A stretch of DNA of 64,000 bases from Ferruginibacter sp. (lineage in GTDB: Bacteria > Bacteroidota > Bacteroidia > Chitinophagales > Chitinophagaceae). The position numbers and the translations under genes are program-made. Positions 48,622 through 55,552 of this stretch are shown piece after piece. Below the pieces are notes generated by a model. It was not told where the DNA came from. It made no database searches and saw only the letters and a list, made by a program, of their open reading frames with translations. Location of the stretch: the NCBI RefSeq assembly GCF_014377975.1, contig NZ_JACMOO010000362.1, positions 1 through 64,000 on the forward strand. The letters are read 5' to 3'. Each line of letters starts with the position of its first letter. Position 1 is the first letter of the stretch.

Positions 48622-49506
48622 TTAATCCCATTCTTTTTCTTCTTTGGCTTTTTTCCTATCAACACTACTTGCCAGAAGAATACTTACCCAATATAATAAT
48701 ACCAGCGGGATGGCTACAATAAACTGGCTTGTCCAATCGGGCGAAGGTGTAATTACCGCAGCGACCACTAATATAATAACAAAGGCAAATTTGAAATATT
48801 TTTTCAGCATTGCACCGGTAATGATGCCGATTTTTGCAAGTACAAAAGCCAGTACCGGCAGTTCGAAAGCAATACCACAGCCAAGGATAAGATTGGTAAG
48901 GCTATCAACATAGTCATTGATGGAAGGCCGGTATTGTATCATGGTAGATTTACCCAGTGTAAAACCGGCTAAAAAATTAAAGGTAAACGGCGCAAGCAAA
49001 TAATAGCCAAAAGCAGCGCCTGTAAAGAAACACAGCGATACGAAAAAAATACTGTTTTGGCCATATTTTTTTTCTTTTGATGAAAGCGCAGGTTTTATAA
49101 AGCGCCAAAGCTCCCAAAAAATATAGGGAAAAGCCACAATAACACCACCAATCATAGCAATGTTGATGGCTGAGGTAAAAGTGCCGTTTACTTCCGTTAC
49201 CTGAAAATTAATTACAATGGCAGGCATACAAAAACTATCACCGAGGTGTAACCAGTGCCCAAAATTACAGAGGGCACCATAGGTAAAAAATTTAGGAAAA
49301 GTGGGCGCAAGAATAATATTATCGTACACCCAATCTACGTAAACAAAAATCAGCACTACTGCTATCAGCCATACAGCTACGCTACGGATTAAATGCCAGC
49401 GCAATTCTTCAATGTGGTCGAAGAAGTTCATTTCTGTTGGTTCTTCTTTATCTTTTCCGCCTATACGTTTAAAAAAATTTTTTCTTTCGGATGATTTTGT
49501 TGCCAA
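48622..49506 (-). CDS. tatC: Twin-arginine translocase subunit TatC
   Basis: Polytopic inner-membrane receptor of the Tat pathway, 294 residues and six TM helices. It shows the conserved cytoplasmic start MNFFDHIEELRWHLIRS, the periplasmic loop with FKPAL-type RFIKPALSSKEKK, FFTGAAFGYYLLAPF and CGIAFELPVLAFVLAKIGII. The frame begins at a TTG (49506) with a basic 25-residue extension; the internal ATG 49431 is an alternative. An insertion of about 25 residues in the first periplasmic loop (TYGALCNFGHWLHLGDSFCM) is typical of Bacteroidota. TatA is not in the window. Confidence 0.95.
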   Translation of the reverse strand: MATKSSERKNFFKRIGGKDKEEPTEMNFFDHIEELRWHLIRSVAVWLIAVVLIFVYVDWVYDNIILAPTFPKFFTYGALCNFGHWLHLGDSFCMPAIVINFQVTEVNGTFTSAINIAMIGGVIVAFPYIFWELWRFIKPALSSKEKKYGQNSIFFVSLCFFTGAAFGYYLLAPFTFNFLAGFTLGKSTMIQYRPSINDYVDSLTNLILGCGIAFELPVLAFVLAKIGIITGAMLKKYFKFAFVIILVVAAVITPSPDWTSQFIVAIPLVLLYWVSILLASSVDRKKAKEEKEWD

Positions 49507-49670: not shown

Positions 49671-52600
49671 CTATAGTTTTACATCAGTTGCAGAAGAAGC
49701 AGAAAGCTGGCTAACATTGCCCGTACGTTTTAGTACACCCCATCCCTGCAACTCGCCTTTGATGGCTTTGCTGAACGACTTAATTATGATATAATACATC
49801 AGCTGCCTGTATACCAGCCGTTGCGGTATCATCCAGATTAGTTTTTTATAATCTTCTTTTTCAAACGCAAAAGCAAGTGCTGCGCCTACTACATCAACTA
49901 TAGTAAAAATCAAGTAATAAATAACGATGTGTGTAATGCTGGCGGGAATAAGCCCAAATCCGGCTGCAACTAAACTTAGTACCAGTATCAGGTCGGCCAA
50001 TGGAGCCAGGAAAGGCAATATCATTTGAAAGATGAGGATATTGGGCATGGCAACCATACCAAAATTTTTATATTTTGGATTGAATACCGCATCCCGGTGT
50101 TTCCAAAAACACTGCATTACGCCAAAACTCCAGCGAAAGCGCTGCTTCATAAACTGTCGCATAGTTTCCGGAGCTTCCGTGTATGAGATGGCATCATTGC
50201 AATTTCTTACTTCGTAACCAATGCGGTGAAGGCGCATGGTAAGGTCACAATCTTCTGCCAGTGTATCCGTTGTTAAGCCACCCGCTTCTATAACCGCGGC
50301 TTTTCTAAAAGCTCCGATGGCACCAGGTACCACGGTAATACAATCCAGTAAATCAAAGGCCCGGCGGTCAAAATTTTGCGAAGTAATGTATTCAATACTT
50401 TGCCATTTTGTAATCATATTAATTTCGTTGCCCACTTTTACATTGCCTGCTACTGCGGCTACTTTTTCACTGGTAAATTTTTGCATCAGCTTTGATACGG
50501 CATCGCTTTTTAACTGCGTATCAGCATCTATACAAACTACAAATTCGCTATCGGCTTTTGCTATACCTACATTTAGGGCAGAAGCTTTGCCTCCATTTAT
50601 TTTAGTATAAAACTTAACGTTACCTGTATTTTTAAAAGCATTACTTACCGTATCATAGGTACTGTCTTTACTGCCATCATCCACAAAAACCACCTGCAGG
50701 TTGGGATAGTCCTGCATCAGCAAACTAGTTACAGTTCTTACTGCATTTATTTCTTCGTTATATGCGGGCACAATAACACTTACCACGGGCATATTACCAA
50801 CAAACGGAGTTAAGGCGGGTTTTTGTTTATCTTCTCTTCGCTTTTGTATGCCCGCCAGTAGGGCCATCACTACCATTCTGCCTACAGAAAGTAGAATACC
50901 CACTATAAACAGGGCAAATAAAATATGGCTTCCCCAGTAAGCAGCCTCTGCAAAAAAGAAATTGAGTTTTCTCATCCAGCCATCTTTGCTGGGCGGCAGC
51001 GGTGGCATCACATCATTTTTTGTTTTGCCCATTAAATCGGCAACCGTGGTAAATACACAACCTCTTTTTTTAAAGTAAGCTATTATGCGGGGCAAGGCAT
51101 CTACAGTGGCCTGTCTTGTTTCGCCACCTGCGTCATGTAATAATATAATGCTGGCACCGGATTCTTCTGCAATACGGATGGTTCTGGCTACAATACTGTC
51201 TGCACTTACATTTACCTGCCAGTCGTTGGGATCAATGCTTTCACCAATGGTGATATAATTATCTTTTTTACTGCGGGCTATAGGTTCAATTTCTTCATAG
51301 GTCTGAGGCTCACTATCCGCATTGTAAGGCGCTCTGAACAAAATAGTAGAATGGCCGGTGATACTTTCTATTAAAAGCCGTGTGGATTTCATTTCCAGTT
51401 CAGCCCTTTGGGGGCTCATTTTTGCAATATTGCCGTGGGTAAACGTATGGTTTCCTATTTCATAACCATCTCTGTAGATGCGTTTCAGTAATGGAATATT
51501 TTGCTCGGCGTTTAAACCTACCACAAAAAATGTGGCCGGTATTTTTTCTTTTTCGAGGATGTTTAATATTTGAGGTGTAAACTCAGGGCTGGGTCCATCG
51601 TCAAAAGTTAAAATTATTTTATGCCCTGGTCCCATGGGCGTTTTATCTTCTGCAAATTTCTGGTATACATAGCCTGAAGGCAATACTTTATAATTCTGCT
51701 CAGTAATCAGTAATTCTGAAGTATCTATCTGCAGGTCAATTTTTCCTTCCTGCGGGGTATAGAGGATGCGCAACAACTCACCTTCGCCTGTGGGGGTGGG
51801 CTTGCGGTTTACATTAAAAGGGATGCTGGCAAGTTGCGAAAAATCAAAAGGTTTTTTTTGTAATGCGGAATTACTTAAATCGGTATTGTAATAGGACCAC
51901 ATTCTTGGGTCTTCGCCTCCCATCCGCCACAAAGCTGTGCCAGCAGTTGCATACTCATCGCTAAAGCGAAGGATATTAAAAGTAGTAGCGGCATCTGTGC
52001 ACCATATTTCGTGTTTTATTTTAATTAGTTTCCTGGTAGTTTCGTCCGTATGTTCATCTGTATAACTAAAATGAAGGTTATAGCTGTCATCGTCATAATC
52101 GATGGTAGCGTTAGAGATTTTGGCTTTATCAATGACCTCGGCATAAGTCATTTCTATGACTACTTTTTTTCCTTCGTCATCTGTTGTCCAGTCGTATCCG
52201 TAACCCGCCACACCTAAAATTATTTTACTGCTTTCAATTTTAGAAGCTGTCCAGTCCAGCGCTTCCTCAATCCATTTCTGCCCGCTTACAGGGCCCGGAC
52301 CAGACTCAACTGTGCTGTACTGATCGTAGGCCATCAATATAATAAAGTCGTTACAGTTGGATAATTTTTTGTAGTCATAGGCATCGTTTTTTACAGCAAC
52401 GTCCATTGTAACAATCATATTTTGCGCATGTAAAGCAGCGTATAATTTTTGTTGAAAACGCGTAAGGGGCTCGTTTGTAGGCTCTGTCAGCTCTTCAAAA
52501 TCTATATTAATACCCTGCAGGTGATAATGGTTTAATGTATCCAGCACCTGCTGAATGAATTTTTGCTGCTTAACAGGGTTATTTAAAATACCATGCAGTA

Positions 52601-53195
52601 ATCTGCCATCAAAATCGGGTTTTAATTGACCGGATGCGTCTTGTAAAGTTGAATTAAAATTATTGAGAATCGGCATGATCCGCAAACCTTTTGCCCGCAT
52701 TACATTAAGGCCTGCTGTGTCTATCCTGGTTTGTAAGCGAAAGTTATCAGCGGTGTCAATAAAAAACCATTCAGGGAAAATGGTATTTAGTTTATCGCCG
52801 TATTTATCCAGGTCGGGTAAAGAAGTATTGGCCGTCCAGGGGGTATAAAAGGCAGCCCGTATAAAAGGTATTTTGTTTACAATTTTGTTTTGCGATTGCC
52901 GGATGGCTTTAATCGAATCGTCTTTTATTCTTTTTATTAAAAAATCTTTAAAGCCTTTGAATTTTTTATTTTGACTGTTGGCAATAGTTAAAGGGTTAGA
53001 AGGATCTAATTTATTTTCATAAAATTTTGACAGGTTCTCAATATTAACCGGCGAAGGATTGACGCCCCTGATTAAAGCCACCACCAACACTACAAAAAAG
53101 AATAAAACAATCATTAACAAAATTCTGAAAGACCACTGGAAACTGCGCCAGCGGGCAGCACTACTGGTTTGAAATATTTGCGAACTATCACTCAT
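49671..53195 (-). CDS. GH18 - CE4 polysaccharide deacetylase - GT2 glycosyltransferase fusion
   Basis: A 1174-residue membrane protein with three enzyme domains. A TM helix at about 24-43 precedes a GH18-like glycosidase domain (about 110-440) with QGINIDFEE; E234 matches the catalytic acid, while the first Asp of the usual DxDxE is Asn230. A CE4 deacetylase domain (about 525-725) follows, with TFDDGP (D532, D533), HTFTH (H583, H587), RAPYN and LLHDAGG. After a TM at about 755-780 comes a GT2 domain with VDDGS (D839, D840), DAD (890-892), ED (981-982) and QRFRW (1018-1022), then C-terminal TM helices. The order places hydrolase and deacetylase outside and the synthase inside, like PgaB and PgaC joined. 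Substrate (N-acetylglucosamine polymer) is inferred. Confidence 0.93.
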   Translation of the reverse strand: MSDSSQIFQTSSAARWRSFQWSFRILLMIVLFFFVVLVVALIRGVNPSPVNIENLSKFYENKLDPSNPLTIANSQNKKFKGFKDFLIKRIKDDSIKAIRQSQNKIVNKIPFIRAAFYTPWTANTSLPDLDKYGDKLNTIFPEWFFIDTADNFRLQTRIDTAGLNVMRAKGLRIMPILNNFNSTLQDASGQLKPDFDGRLLHGILNNPVKQQKFIQQVLDTLNHYHLQGINIDFEELTEPTNEPLTRFQQKLYAALHAQNMIVTMDVAVKNDAYDYKKLSNCNDFIILMAYDQYSTVESGPGPVSGQKWIEEALDWTASKIESSKIILGVAGYGYDWTTDDEGKKVVIEMTYAEVIDKAKISNATIDYDDDSYNLHFSYTDEHTDETTRKLIKIKHEIWCTDAATTFNILRFSDEYATAGTALWRMGGEDPRMWSYYNTDLSNSALQKKPFDFSQLASIPFNVNRKPTPTGEGELLRILYTPQEGKIDLQIDTSELLITEQNYKVLPSGYVYQKFAEDKTPMGPGHKIILTFDDGPSPEFTPQILNILEKEKIPATFFVVGLNAEQNIPLLKRIYRDGYEIGNHTFTHGNIAKMSPQRAELEMKSTRLLIESITGHSTILFRAPYNADSEPQTYEEIEPIARSKKDNYITIGESIDPNDWQVNVSADSIVARTIRIAEESGASIILLHDAGGETRQATVDALPRIIAYFKKRGCVFTTVADLMGKTKNDVMPPLPPSKDGWMRKLNFFFAEAAYWGSHILFALFIVGILLSVGRMVVMALLAGIQKRREDKQKPALTPFVGNMPVVSVIVPAYNEEINAVRTVTSLLMQDYPNLQVVFVDDGSKDSTYDTVSNAFKNTGNVKFYTKINGGKASALNVGIAKADSEFVVCIDADTQLKSDAVSKLMQKFTSEKVAAVAGNVKVGNEINMITKWQSIEYITSQNFDRRAFDLLDCITVVPGAIGAFRKAAVIEAGGLTTDTLAEDCDLTMRLHRIGYEVRNCNDAISYTEAPETMRQFMKQRFRWSFGVMQCFWKHRDAVFNPKYKNFGMVAMPNILIFQMILPFLAPLADLILVLSLVAAGFGLIPASITHIVIYYLIFTIVDVVGAALAFAFEKEDYKKLIWMIPQRLVYRQLMYYIIIKSFSKAIKGELQGWGVLKRTGNVSQLSASSATDVKL

Positions 53196-53573: not shown

Positions 53574-54860
53574 ATGAACTTTGTAACAATGAAGTCAACT
53601 ACTTTAAGATGGATTATGCTGAGCATTACCATTATTATTACATTAATAATCGTATCTCAGTTATATTGGCTTAAAAGAGTGTATACTTTGCAGGAACAGC
53701 AATTTAGTACGGGTGTAATTAAAAGTATCCGGGGTTTATTTGAAGATGTAAAGATTGCTGATAACCCTGCCTTTCAGGTAAAACAAATTGTAGAAGCAAT
53801 CGATCCCAATACCTATCTTGTAAAGTTAGATTCTGTACCCAATAAGGATTCTTTGTACTATCATCTGAGCAACGAATTTGAAGATTTTGATGTTTGGACG
53901 GATTGTAATGTAGGAGTATACAGTAATAAAAAAAATGCTTTTATTTACGAGTTTTATTTATCTACTGCTGCATCCCGTTATCCCCAAAATGGTGTAGTAA
54001 ATCTGGTAGCGGTTAAAAAAAAATATGACTATTTATTGCTGCATTTTCCACATCGCAGCAAATATATTATTCATGAAATGCTGTTCTGGATTATTACTGC
54101 AATTGTGCTGTTGCTGGTATTGATTGGTCTTTCTGTAAGTCTTATTTATCTATACAAACAAAAGTTTTTAAACGAATTGCAGAAAGACTTTGTTAATAAT
54201 TTTACGCATGAATTTAAAACCCCGCTGGCTGTTATGAAAATTGCCAGCGATGTGCTGATACAACCCGCTATTACATCACAACCAGGCAGGCTATTAAAAT
54301 ATGGGACTGTAATTAAAGAACAAACCGAACACCTGCAAAATCAGGTAGAACGACTTTTAAAAACTGCATCCGGGGATAATAAAAATATTATTGTACATAA
54401 AGAAGCTTGCAGATTAAACGAAATTATTGCACATGCTATCTACCAGTTAGAACCCCTTATAAAAGATAAAAACGCTGCTGTATATTTTACCCCGGATGAA
54501 AATGACCCATTAGTACAGGCGGATAGGGTACATTTACAACTGGTAATAATTAATGTAATTGAAAATGCCTTAAAATATAGTACAGGAACACCCTACATAG
54601 CAATAGATATACAGCAGGAAACCAATAATTTTTATGCAGTTTCAATAAAAGACAAAGGCATAGGAATTGAAGAAAAGAATTTTAAATATCTATTTAAAAA
54701 ATTTTACCGGGTACCCACGGGCAATATTCACCAGGTAAATGGATTTGGGCTTGGACTAAATTTTGTGAAACAAATTATTGACGCTCATGACGGAAAGATT
54801 GTCTTAAAAAGTGTACCGGGCGTTGGTACCGAATTTAAAATACTGTTACCTGAAAAATAA
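53574..54860 (+). CDS. Sensor histidine kinase
   Basis: Two-pass membrane histidine kinase of 428 residues. TM1 is at about 13-32 and TM2 at about 168-193, with a periplasmic sensor region of about 130 residues that resembles no known domain. The cytoplasmic core has the HisKA motif NFTHEFKTPLAVM with phospho-acceptor H212, the N-box VIINVIENALKYS, the G1 region IKDKGIGIEEKN and G2 GFGLGLNFVK. No HAMP domain is clear. The adjacent response regulator gene starts 5 bases later, so they form one two-component system. The signal is unknown. Confidence 0.94.
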   Translation: MNFVTMKSTTLRWIMLSITIIITLIIVSQLYWLKRVYTLQEQQFSTGVIKSIRGLFEDVKIADNPAFQVKQIVEAIDPNTYLVKLDSVPNKDSLYYHLSNEFEDFDVWTDCNVGVYSNKKNAFIYEFYLSTAASRYPQNGVVNLVAVKKKYDYLLLHFPHRSKYIIHEMLFWIITAIVLLLVLIGLSVSLIYLYKQKFLNELQKDFVNNFTHEFKTPLAVMKIASDVLIQPAITSQPGRLLKYGTVIKEQTEHLQNQVERLLKTASGDNKNIIVHKEACRLNEIIAHAIYQLEPLIKDKNAAVYFTPDENDPLVQADRVHLQLVIINVIENALKYSTGTPYIAIDIQQETNNFYAVSIKDKGIGIEEKNFKYLFKKFYRVPTGNIHQVNGFGLGLNFVKQIIDAHDGKIVLKSVPGVGTEFKILLPEK

Positions 54861-54865
54861 CTACC

Positions 54866-55552
54866 ATGGCCGATAAAGTAAAAGTTTTGTTAGCAGAAGA
54901 TGATACTTCACTGGCTTTCGTTATAAAAGACAACCTGGAAGAAGCGGGTTATGAAGTTTGCTGGTGTAGCGATGGAGAAGCAGCATGGCAGCAATTTCAA
55001 AAAAATCATTTTGATATTTGTCTGCTGGATGTAATGATGCCTGTAAAGGATGGTTTTACTGTGGCAAAAAAAATCCGTCAAAAAAGTGATGTGGTGCCTG
55101 TTTTATTTATTACTGCCCGTTCGATGGAGCAAGATAAACTGGATGGATTTAGATCTGGTGGGGATGATTATATTACCAAGCCTTTTAGTATGCAGGAACT
55201 GCTGATGCGGATGGATGTTTTTTTAAGAAGAACTAAAAAAATGCACTTTGAAAAGGCGCATGAATATACCATTGGGAGAATGCGGTTTTCTTTTGCAGAT
55301 TTAAAAATATACGATGGAGAAAAAGTAATTTCTGTAACCCAACGCGAAGCCGACCTTTTAAATTTCTTTTGCCAGCATACCAATAAGGTTTTAAAAAGAG
55401 AAGAAGTACTGATAAATGTGTGGGGAAAAGACGATTATTTTTTAGGGCGCAGTATGGATGTTTTTATAACAAAGCTTCGGAAACATTTTAAAGAAGACCC
55501 CAGTATTGTTTTAGAAACCATTCATGGTATTGGATTTAGATTAAATGCCTGA
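54866..55552 (+). CDS. OmpR/PhoB-family response regulator
   Basis: A 228-residue regulator: receiver domain with acidic pocket E11-D12-D13, phospho-acceptor D55 in FDICLLDVMMP, T83 and K105 (YITKPFS). A winged-helix DNA-binding domain follows (LKIYDGEKVISVTQREADLLNFFCQHTNKVLKREEVLINVWG...GRSMDVFITKLRKHFKEDP). It is the partner of the kinase directly upstream. In Bacteroidota such pairs resemble RprX/RprY; targets cannot be read from sequence. A hairpin lies 67 bases after its stop. Confidence 0.95.
   Translation: MADKVKVLLAEDDTSLAFVIKDNLEEAGYEVCWCSDGEAAWQQFQKNHFDICLLDVMMPVKDGFTVAKKIRQKSDVVPVLFITARSMEQDKLDGFRSGGDDYITKPFSMQELLMRMDVFLRRTKKMHFEKAHEYTIGRMRFSFADLKIYDGEKVISVTQREADLLNFFCQHTNKVLKREEVLINVWGKDDYFLGRSMDVFITKLRKHFKEDPSIVLETIHGIGFRLNA

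Follow-up and report, generated by a model that had tools for sequence, protein, structure and literature searches.

The locus and its gene

In the 64,000-nucleotide stretch of Ferruginibacter sp. DNA analysed here (the window; contig NZ_JACMOO010000362.1), positions 49671-53195 of the minus strand form a single open reading frame, encoding a protein of 1174 amino acids that joins a GH18 hydrolase, a CE4 deacetylase and a GT2 glycosyltransferase (Table 1). The plus-strand frame across the same positions is full of stops. The presence of the three domains on one polypeptide, as the original prediction had proposed from the letters alone, was confirmed by Pfam, all three matches being above the curated cut-offs: Glyco_hydro_18 (PF00704) at residues 203-399 (66.4 bits, cut-off 29.6), Polysacc_deac_1 (PF01522) at residues 524-626 (108.8 bits, cut-off 23.1) and Glycos_transf_2 at residues 806-968 (110.9 bits, cut-off 23.3). 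Judged from the sequence, the catalytic motifs of the protein are intact, except for an asparagine (N230) in place of the first aspartate of the GH18 motif.

Table 1. Features of the fusion gene and of its neighbours in the window (residue numbers refer to the fusion protein)
Feature	Position	Strand	Basis
GH18-CE4-GT2 fusion gene, 1174 aa	49671..53195	-	full-length homologues, 47-89% identity
Membrane helix 1, residues about 24-44	53064..53126	-	hydropathy; model helix 13-45; structural alignment
GH18 TIM barrel, residues 109-445, SleL/5jh8-like, predicted outside	51861..52871	-	Pfam, phmmer, model
GH18 motif N-I-D-F-E (N230, D232, E234)	52494..52508	-	sequence and alignment
Small beta-rich linker between GH18 and CE4, residues about 450-520	51636..51848	-	model strands 467-514
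CE4 NodB-type deacetylase, residues 522-725, five motifs, predicted outside	51021..51632	-	Pfam, alignment
Membrane helix 2, residues about 758-780	50856..50924	-	hydropathy and model
GT2 catalytic domain, residues about 800-1040, predicted inside	50076..50798	-	Pfam, NCBIfam, alignment
C-terminal membrane helices, residues about 1041-1146	49758..50075	-	hydropathy and model
Histidine kinase, divergent neighbour	53574..54860	+	open reading frame and Pfam
Response regulator with winged-helix output domain	54866..55552	+	open reading frame and Pfam
TatC, directly downstream, same strand	48622..49506	-	Pfam

A contig scan with two CE4 peptides as patterns gave at least 596 stretches, 575 of these being confirmed as encoding relatives of the query, not all with three domains; the best 80 of these relatives form the set to which counts on 80 loci refer. 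Conservation was examined in 69 full-length rows, the query and 68 of the 80 loci, the other 12 being truncated or interrupted (eight) or having one stop in the range (four). The GT2 domain shows DDG at residues 839-841, DAD at 890-892, ED at 981-982 and QRFRW at 1018-1022, which we take to be the DDG, DxD, ED and QxxRW motifs of processive enzymes; D840, D890, D892, E981, D982, Q1018, R1021 and W1022 are identical in all 69 rows and D839 is kept in 68. The CE4 assignment is likewise supported by conservation of what are presumably the five NodB motifs, with D532, D533, H583, H587, R621, P623, D655, D658, W659, H687 and D688 identical in every row and residue 624 being Tyr in 64 rows and Phe in five. 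The linker between GH18 and CE4 had no Pfam match in the family scan, and several of its residues are invariant among homologues.

Distribution of the fusion

The same architecture was found in many Bacteroidota, sphingomonads and Deinococcus, and its three modules are already listed in print; the fusion is thus widespread, and not unusual as had been supposed. Two publications list proteins that, going by their modules, carry the same three CAZy modules as the query: GH18-CE4-GT2 from Acetivibrio cellulolyticus, in a table (ZP_09465738; PMC3413522), and CE4-GH18-GT2 from Sphingobacterium multivorum w15 (PMC7065263).

A full-length copy with 64-88% identity is present in 10 of the 35 other genomes of the genus; one further genome (G023) has a copy split over two frames, another (G005) has a piece at a contig end, and the remaining 23 have no full-length match. 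Nor did any of 23 genomes from the order's other families yield one. In an even draw across the phylum, a match at E <= 1e-150 occurs in 16 of 295 other genomes (17 of 296 with the query's own). Culturable environmental strains that carry the gene include Kaistella palustris DSM 21579 (L066) and Flavobacterium defluvii DSM 17963 (L074). Titles of 79 of the 80 best loci are Bacteroidota (Chitinophagaceae, Flavobacterium, Kaistella, Chryseobacterium and others), and among the matches listed the closest named relatives are metagenome-assembled genomes of Ferruginibacter, with up to 89% identity. One contig labelled Beijerinckiaceae (Pseudomonadota; CAJCIQ010000110.1, locus L060) encodes a protein 58% identical to the query that groups inside the Bacteroidota, and may be mis-binned. 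In the split copy (G023:C77:24922-28105, locus L020) the rest of the GT2 part is read in a different frame, possibly through a frameshift or an assembly error. In Kaistella sp. SH40-3 (L061, 8001-11405) the gene is broken into open pieces of 188, 263 and 682 amino acids, unlike in related Kaistella, which hold intact copies.

A translated search of plasmid records gave 17 with one place covering at least 80% of the protein, from Prevotella (1), Sphingomonas (1), Novosphingobium (2), Sphingobium (8), Sulfitobacter (4) and Deinococcus (1). Hidden Markov models (HMMs) of the single domains confirmed GH18, CE4 and GT2 in one Prevotella, three sphingomonad and one Deinococcus protein, and CE4-GT2 without GH18 in one Kocuria and one Streptomyces plasmid protein. 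Four of the first five plasmid homologues are annotated simply as glycosyltransferase, and the Kocuria protein as a bifunctional deacetylase/glycosyltransferase. A gene annotated as chitinase lies beside the latter; the idea that it might be a separate counterpart of the fused GH18 found no support, as its product has no significant similarity with the query (E 0.83), and it also scores below the Pfam GH18 cut-off (22.9 against 29.6).

The GH18 domain

The original prediction had read E234 as kept and the first aspartate of DxDxE as replaced by asparagine, and both readings hold. The replacement need not mean loss of GH18 activity, given that this position varies in related GH18 proteins. In phmmer alignments 5jh8 has Asn there, both SleL proteins have His, YdhD has Thr and 4wiw has Val, and all of them share Asp232 and Glu234 with the query. 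Among the homologues the residue is Val, Ile or Met in sphingomonads and Deinococcus and Asn in Prevotella. Since proteins of the SleL, YdhD and 5jh8 type vary at the first aspartate, a conclusion of lost function was not drawn from N230; to judge from the alignments, asparagine here is probably a subgroup trait and need not mean an inactive enzyme. Judging by the titles of its entries, SleL is an active lytic enzyme. The likeness to these proteins extends to the fold: in a structure search with the predicted model, residues 109-445 matched 5jh8 (Z 34.9, 304 residues aligned, 2.0 Å) and SleL (Z 34.4, 310 aligned, 2.4 Å). None of these GH18 proteins is known to be fused to CE4 or GT2. The fusion is also the sole PF00704 match in its own genome, and is therefore not part of a chitin-eating set.

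It could still be argued that the GH18 is a non-catalytic domain which binds or guides the chain, as the asparagine is present in 69 of 69 rows, both Sulfitobacter homologues examined retain the GH18-like stretch but show neither the catalytic Glu nor the MxYD motif when aligned, and both actinobacterial homologues dispense with the domain altogether. We consider this unlikely, because D232, E234, M288, Y290, D291 and W423 are conserved in the same 69 rows, 5jh8 has the same asparagine, and the first aspartate is missing from SleL and YdhD as well.

Topology and predicted structure

Hydropathy places membrane helices at about residues 24-44 and 758-780, followed by at least two after the GT2 domain starting at about 1045, which fits the predicted arrangement of GH18 and CE4 outside and GT2 inside. 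Counts of Lys plus Arg in the 15 residues flanking each side were 2/2 at the first helix, 1/4 at the second and 4/0 at the third; the asymmetry at helices 2 and 3 thus backs a GT2 in the cytoplasm, and helix 1 favours neither orientation. An AlphaFold2 model built from a 48-row alignment had a mean pLDDT of 81 and a pTM of 0.58. In this model, residues 758-1147 resemble hyaluronan synthase (HAS) 8snc (Z 34.1, 374 aligned, 2.6 Å), and the predicted fold of GT2 plus helices matches CvHAS and HAS1 with Z of 31-34; identity is only 16-19%, and the GH18-CE4 module is found in the query alone. The product of hyaluronan synthase is an alternating polymer.

In three rows with Xenopus HAS1 the structural alignment begins at residue 12, going by the first and last aligned residues only, and for this reason the model suggests that helix 1 stands in for the synthase's own first helix. 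E. coli PgaC, in the same hydropathy test at a lower threshold, has two helices before GT2 and three after it. From the helix positions, the HAS-like fold and the PgaC helix pattern, it is likely that GH18-CE4 lies in the loop between helices 1 and 2 of a PgaC/HAS-like synthase. Hydropathy gives the same plan of helix, module, helix and GT2 in Prevotella, Sphingomonas and Deinococcus homologues, and in Kocuria without GH18. The 50 structure matches listed for the model include no CE4 structure, hence the CE4 assignment rests on sequence.

The synthase and its product

The best NCBIfam match of the fusion is PgaC/IcaA (TIGR03937; residues 783-1147, 202.7 bits), NodC scoring 92.3 bits, and the GT2 domain is 27% identical to E. 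coli PgaC over 387 columns. In the reverse test, an HMM of the family's GT2 region scored 308 bits with the Kocuria and 303 with the Streptomyces protein, 178 with E. coli PgaC and 91 with NodC; the family's CE4 HMM gave 125 and 150 bits with the CE4-GT2 homologues of Kocuria and Streptomyces. A GT2 tree places the two actinobacterial two-domain rows on the side of PgaC (91/88), with a long-branch warning. As outgroup branch lengths are at their limit, NodC is nested among the Bacteroidota rows and row L104 is ungrouped, no conclusion is drawn on one versus several fusions.

Taken together, it is probable that the fusion produces a deacetylated amino-sugar chain on its own. It would be an inner-membrane processive GT2 synthase of PgaC/HAS build carrying its GH18-CE4 module in a periplasmic loop. 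UDP-N-acetylglucosamine (UDP-GlcNAc) would be polymerised in the cytoplasm and the chain passed through the protein's own helices; the tethered CE4 may then remove acetyl groups as the chain exits, and GH18 may cut or trim it there, yielding a short or medium, partly deacetylated and positively charged amino-sugar chain. If so, a single purified protein would allow study of how a cationic sugar chain is made, crosses the inner membrane, is deacetylated and is trimmed, and the gene would offer a handle on such chains in Gram-negative bacteria without pga operons.

A tested precedent is MatB of Streptomyces, in which CE4 and GT2 are joined, and whose function was examined genetically: MatAB is needed for a polymer that is stained by anti-poly-N-acetylglucosamine (anti-PNAG) antibody and removed by dispersin B (PMC5972031). 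The query follows the same plan on one chain, with CE4 outside, then a helix, then a GT2 on the inner side that has PgaC as its best characterised relative, and is homologous to actinobacterial CE4-GT2 proteins; MatB differs in having no GH18, requiring MatA and belonging to a Gram-positive host. Fusions of glycosyltransferase and deacetylase without pgaA or pgaD have been reported in Gram-negatives (PMC7112194). The E. coli PgaABCD system is similar in its GT2 and in having a deacetylase and a glycosidase act on the chain outside. It differs in its other parts: homology to PgaB was rejected, as only a 38-residue motif match to it was found, and GHL13 (PgaB), the PgaA barrel and PgaD each had no match in the 5.07-Mb genome of the query (94% complete, 7% contamination), E. 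coli being positive in the controls. The absence of other pga-like genes nearby, part of the original prediction, thus extends genome-wide at the sensitivity of the search.

Several points weigh against this explanation. The PgaC/IcaA score is less than half of the curated cut-off of 422.3 bits; the match to the MatB-type plan was made through the Streptomyces and Kocuria plasmid homologues and not through MatB itself; the pTM of only 0.58 makes domain placement in the model unsure; and the genome has no PgaA-type exporter or PgaD, which leaves secretion from a Gram-negative cell unexplained, other exporter types being unsearched. Moreover, the nearest CE4 and GH18 structures are of peptidoglycan or chitin type.

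This last point raises two alternatives. In the first, a variant of the favoured explanation with another linkage, the product would be a beta-1,4 polymer, chitosan-like, as both outside domains resemble beta-1,4 enzymes: 5jh8, YdhD and SleL are nearest to the GH18, and PgdA-type peptidoglycan deacetylases together with proteins named chitin deacetylase are nearest to the CE4. The same likeness to beta-1,4 enzymes was remarked for the MatB CE4 (PMC5972031). However, the GT2 fits PgaC/IcaA over NodC in both directions, and according to the MatB study calcofluor staining in Streptomyces is independent of matAB, in contrast to the antibody-stained and dispersin B-sensitive polymer (PMC5972031). 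We regard a beta-1,4 linkage as a serious but rather doubtful possibility. In the second, the fusion would act on peptidoglycan, with GH18 and CE4 remodelling the wall and GT2 being incidental; the nearest structures do include spore-cortex and peptidoglycan enzymes. This is highly improbable, since the GT2 residues are conserved, the three domains remain fused across large distances, and relatives without GH18 still have CE4-GT2.

Genomic neighbourhood and a possible link to MprF

In the window, tatC and rpiB come after the fusion gene, which on its other side faces a pair made up of a histidine kinase and a response regulator. The neighbourhood was compared by blastp clusters with 89 related loci, the 80 best and nine on plasmids. 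TatC lies near the gene in 21 of the 89, with titles of Ferruginibacter, Chitinophagaceae and other Bacteroidota; owing to this recurrence within the lineage it was set aside as a functional clue, and it is probably a lineage neighbour rather than a functional partner. A histidine kinase or response regulator lies within 8 kb in 25 of the 89 loci as well as in the window, a count that concerns a common family and has no control.

An MprF-type lysyl-phosphatidylglycerol synthase is found within 8 kb in 14 of the 89 loci, in two phyla: 11 of the 80 best and three of the nine plasmid loci, which include no other sphingomonad. Of the members of this cluster, all five tested exceed the PF09924 cut-off, one is annotated mprF and eight were assigned by blastp clustering alone; PF03706 is below cut-off in L132 and L133. 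VirJ is present in eight loci by clustering and in L126 by annotation (Pfam-checked in L054 and L133), and one annotation names it AcvB/VirJ lysyl-phosphatidylglycerol hydrolase. MprF lies downstream with the same orientation, either abutting the gene or up to about 5 kb from it, in Kaistella/Chryseobacterium (L054, L055, L059, L061, L066) and Chitinophagaceae (L051, L065, L096), and VirJ comes next in all eight except L065, where the contig ends. In Flavobacterium (L075, L081, L090) MprF is divergent from the gene. Among the sphingomonads, Sphingobium has the order gene, VirJ, MprF, response regulator, histidine kinase; in Sphingomonas VirJ is divergent and MprF downstream, and in Novosphingobium MprF is upstream.

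The 11 occurrences in the flanks of the 80 loci compare with 0.065 expected by chance, a figure derived from the density in 28 gene-bearing genomes (its own, 11 of the same genus and 16 of the phylum draw), with 46 of the 80 loci having at least 7 kb on both sides. As these loci are related to each other, the effective independent events are few; counting three independent arrangements, the chance figure is about 4e-5. PF09924 is found anywhere in only eight of the 28 genomes and near the gene in one (G342, about 2 kb, from the phylum draw), and the genome of the query has no PF09924 match, the flippase part PF03706 alone not having been searched. The link to lysyl-phosphatidylglycerol is partial, and is the most useful new lead, offering a testable idea of purpose. 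It was not met in a limited literature search, which is far from proof of its absence in print.

A more speculative and rather unlikely reading is that the family is half of an envelope charge system. A short deacetylated chain made by the one protein would remain periplasmic or lipid-bound, which would account for the lack of a PgaA-type exporter, while neighbouring MprF and VirJ/AcvB in some genomes would produce and remove lysyl-phosphatidylglycerol, with one two-component system in control of both halves. Chain and lysyl lipid would jointly set the positive charge against cationic peptides, and the loop insertion would couple chain exit to deacetylation and cutting.

A further alternative is that the amino-sugar product is short, deacetylated and lipid-borne, as a glycolipid or lipid-linked oligosaccharide and not as a free polymer, GlcNAc being added to a lipid, deacetylated outside by CE4, and flipped or complemented by MprF in some genomes. 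The MprF-type and two-component neighbours and the lack of a PgaA-type match are in line with it, and there is a parallel in C. difficile HexSDF, where two-component control governs a glycosyltransferase, a deacetylase and an MprF-like protein that together produce an aminohexosyl glycolipid, a surface amino sugar (PMC10128005). HexSDF are separate proteins with another type of glycosyltransferase, HexS being annotated as a monogalactosyldiacylglycerol synthase, and HexF is described as being without the lysyl-transfer domain that the MprF neighbours carry (PMC10128005). QxxRW and the HAS-like fold moreover point to a chain-making synthase, and the rarity of PF09924 beside the gene, with its absence from the query's own genome, also speaks against a glycolipid, which we consider decidedly unlikely.

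Nine of the 89 loci have a DUF1003-type membrane protein no more than 8 kb from the gene, with a Pfam check in L054 only: L066 (14664-15317), L067 (4987-5733, abutting the gene), L051, L054, L063, L070, L098, L106 and L107. On the Sulfitobacter plasmids L129 (10559-13096) and L134 (9081-11531) a DUF3131 protein follows the gene, PF11329 being confirmed for L129. In Deinococcus sp. KNUC1210 (L127, 11327-12862) a gene annotated as diguanylate cyclase comes after the fusion gene, a hint of cyclic di-GMP control in that organism.

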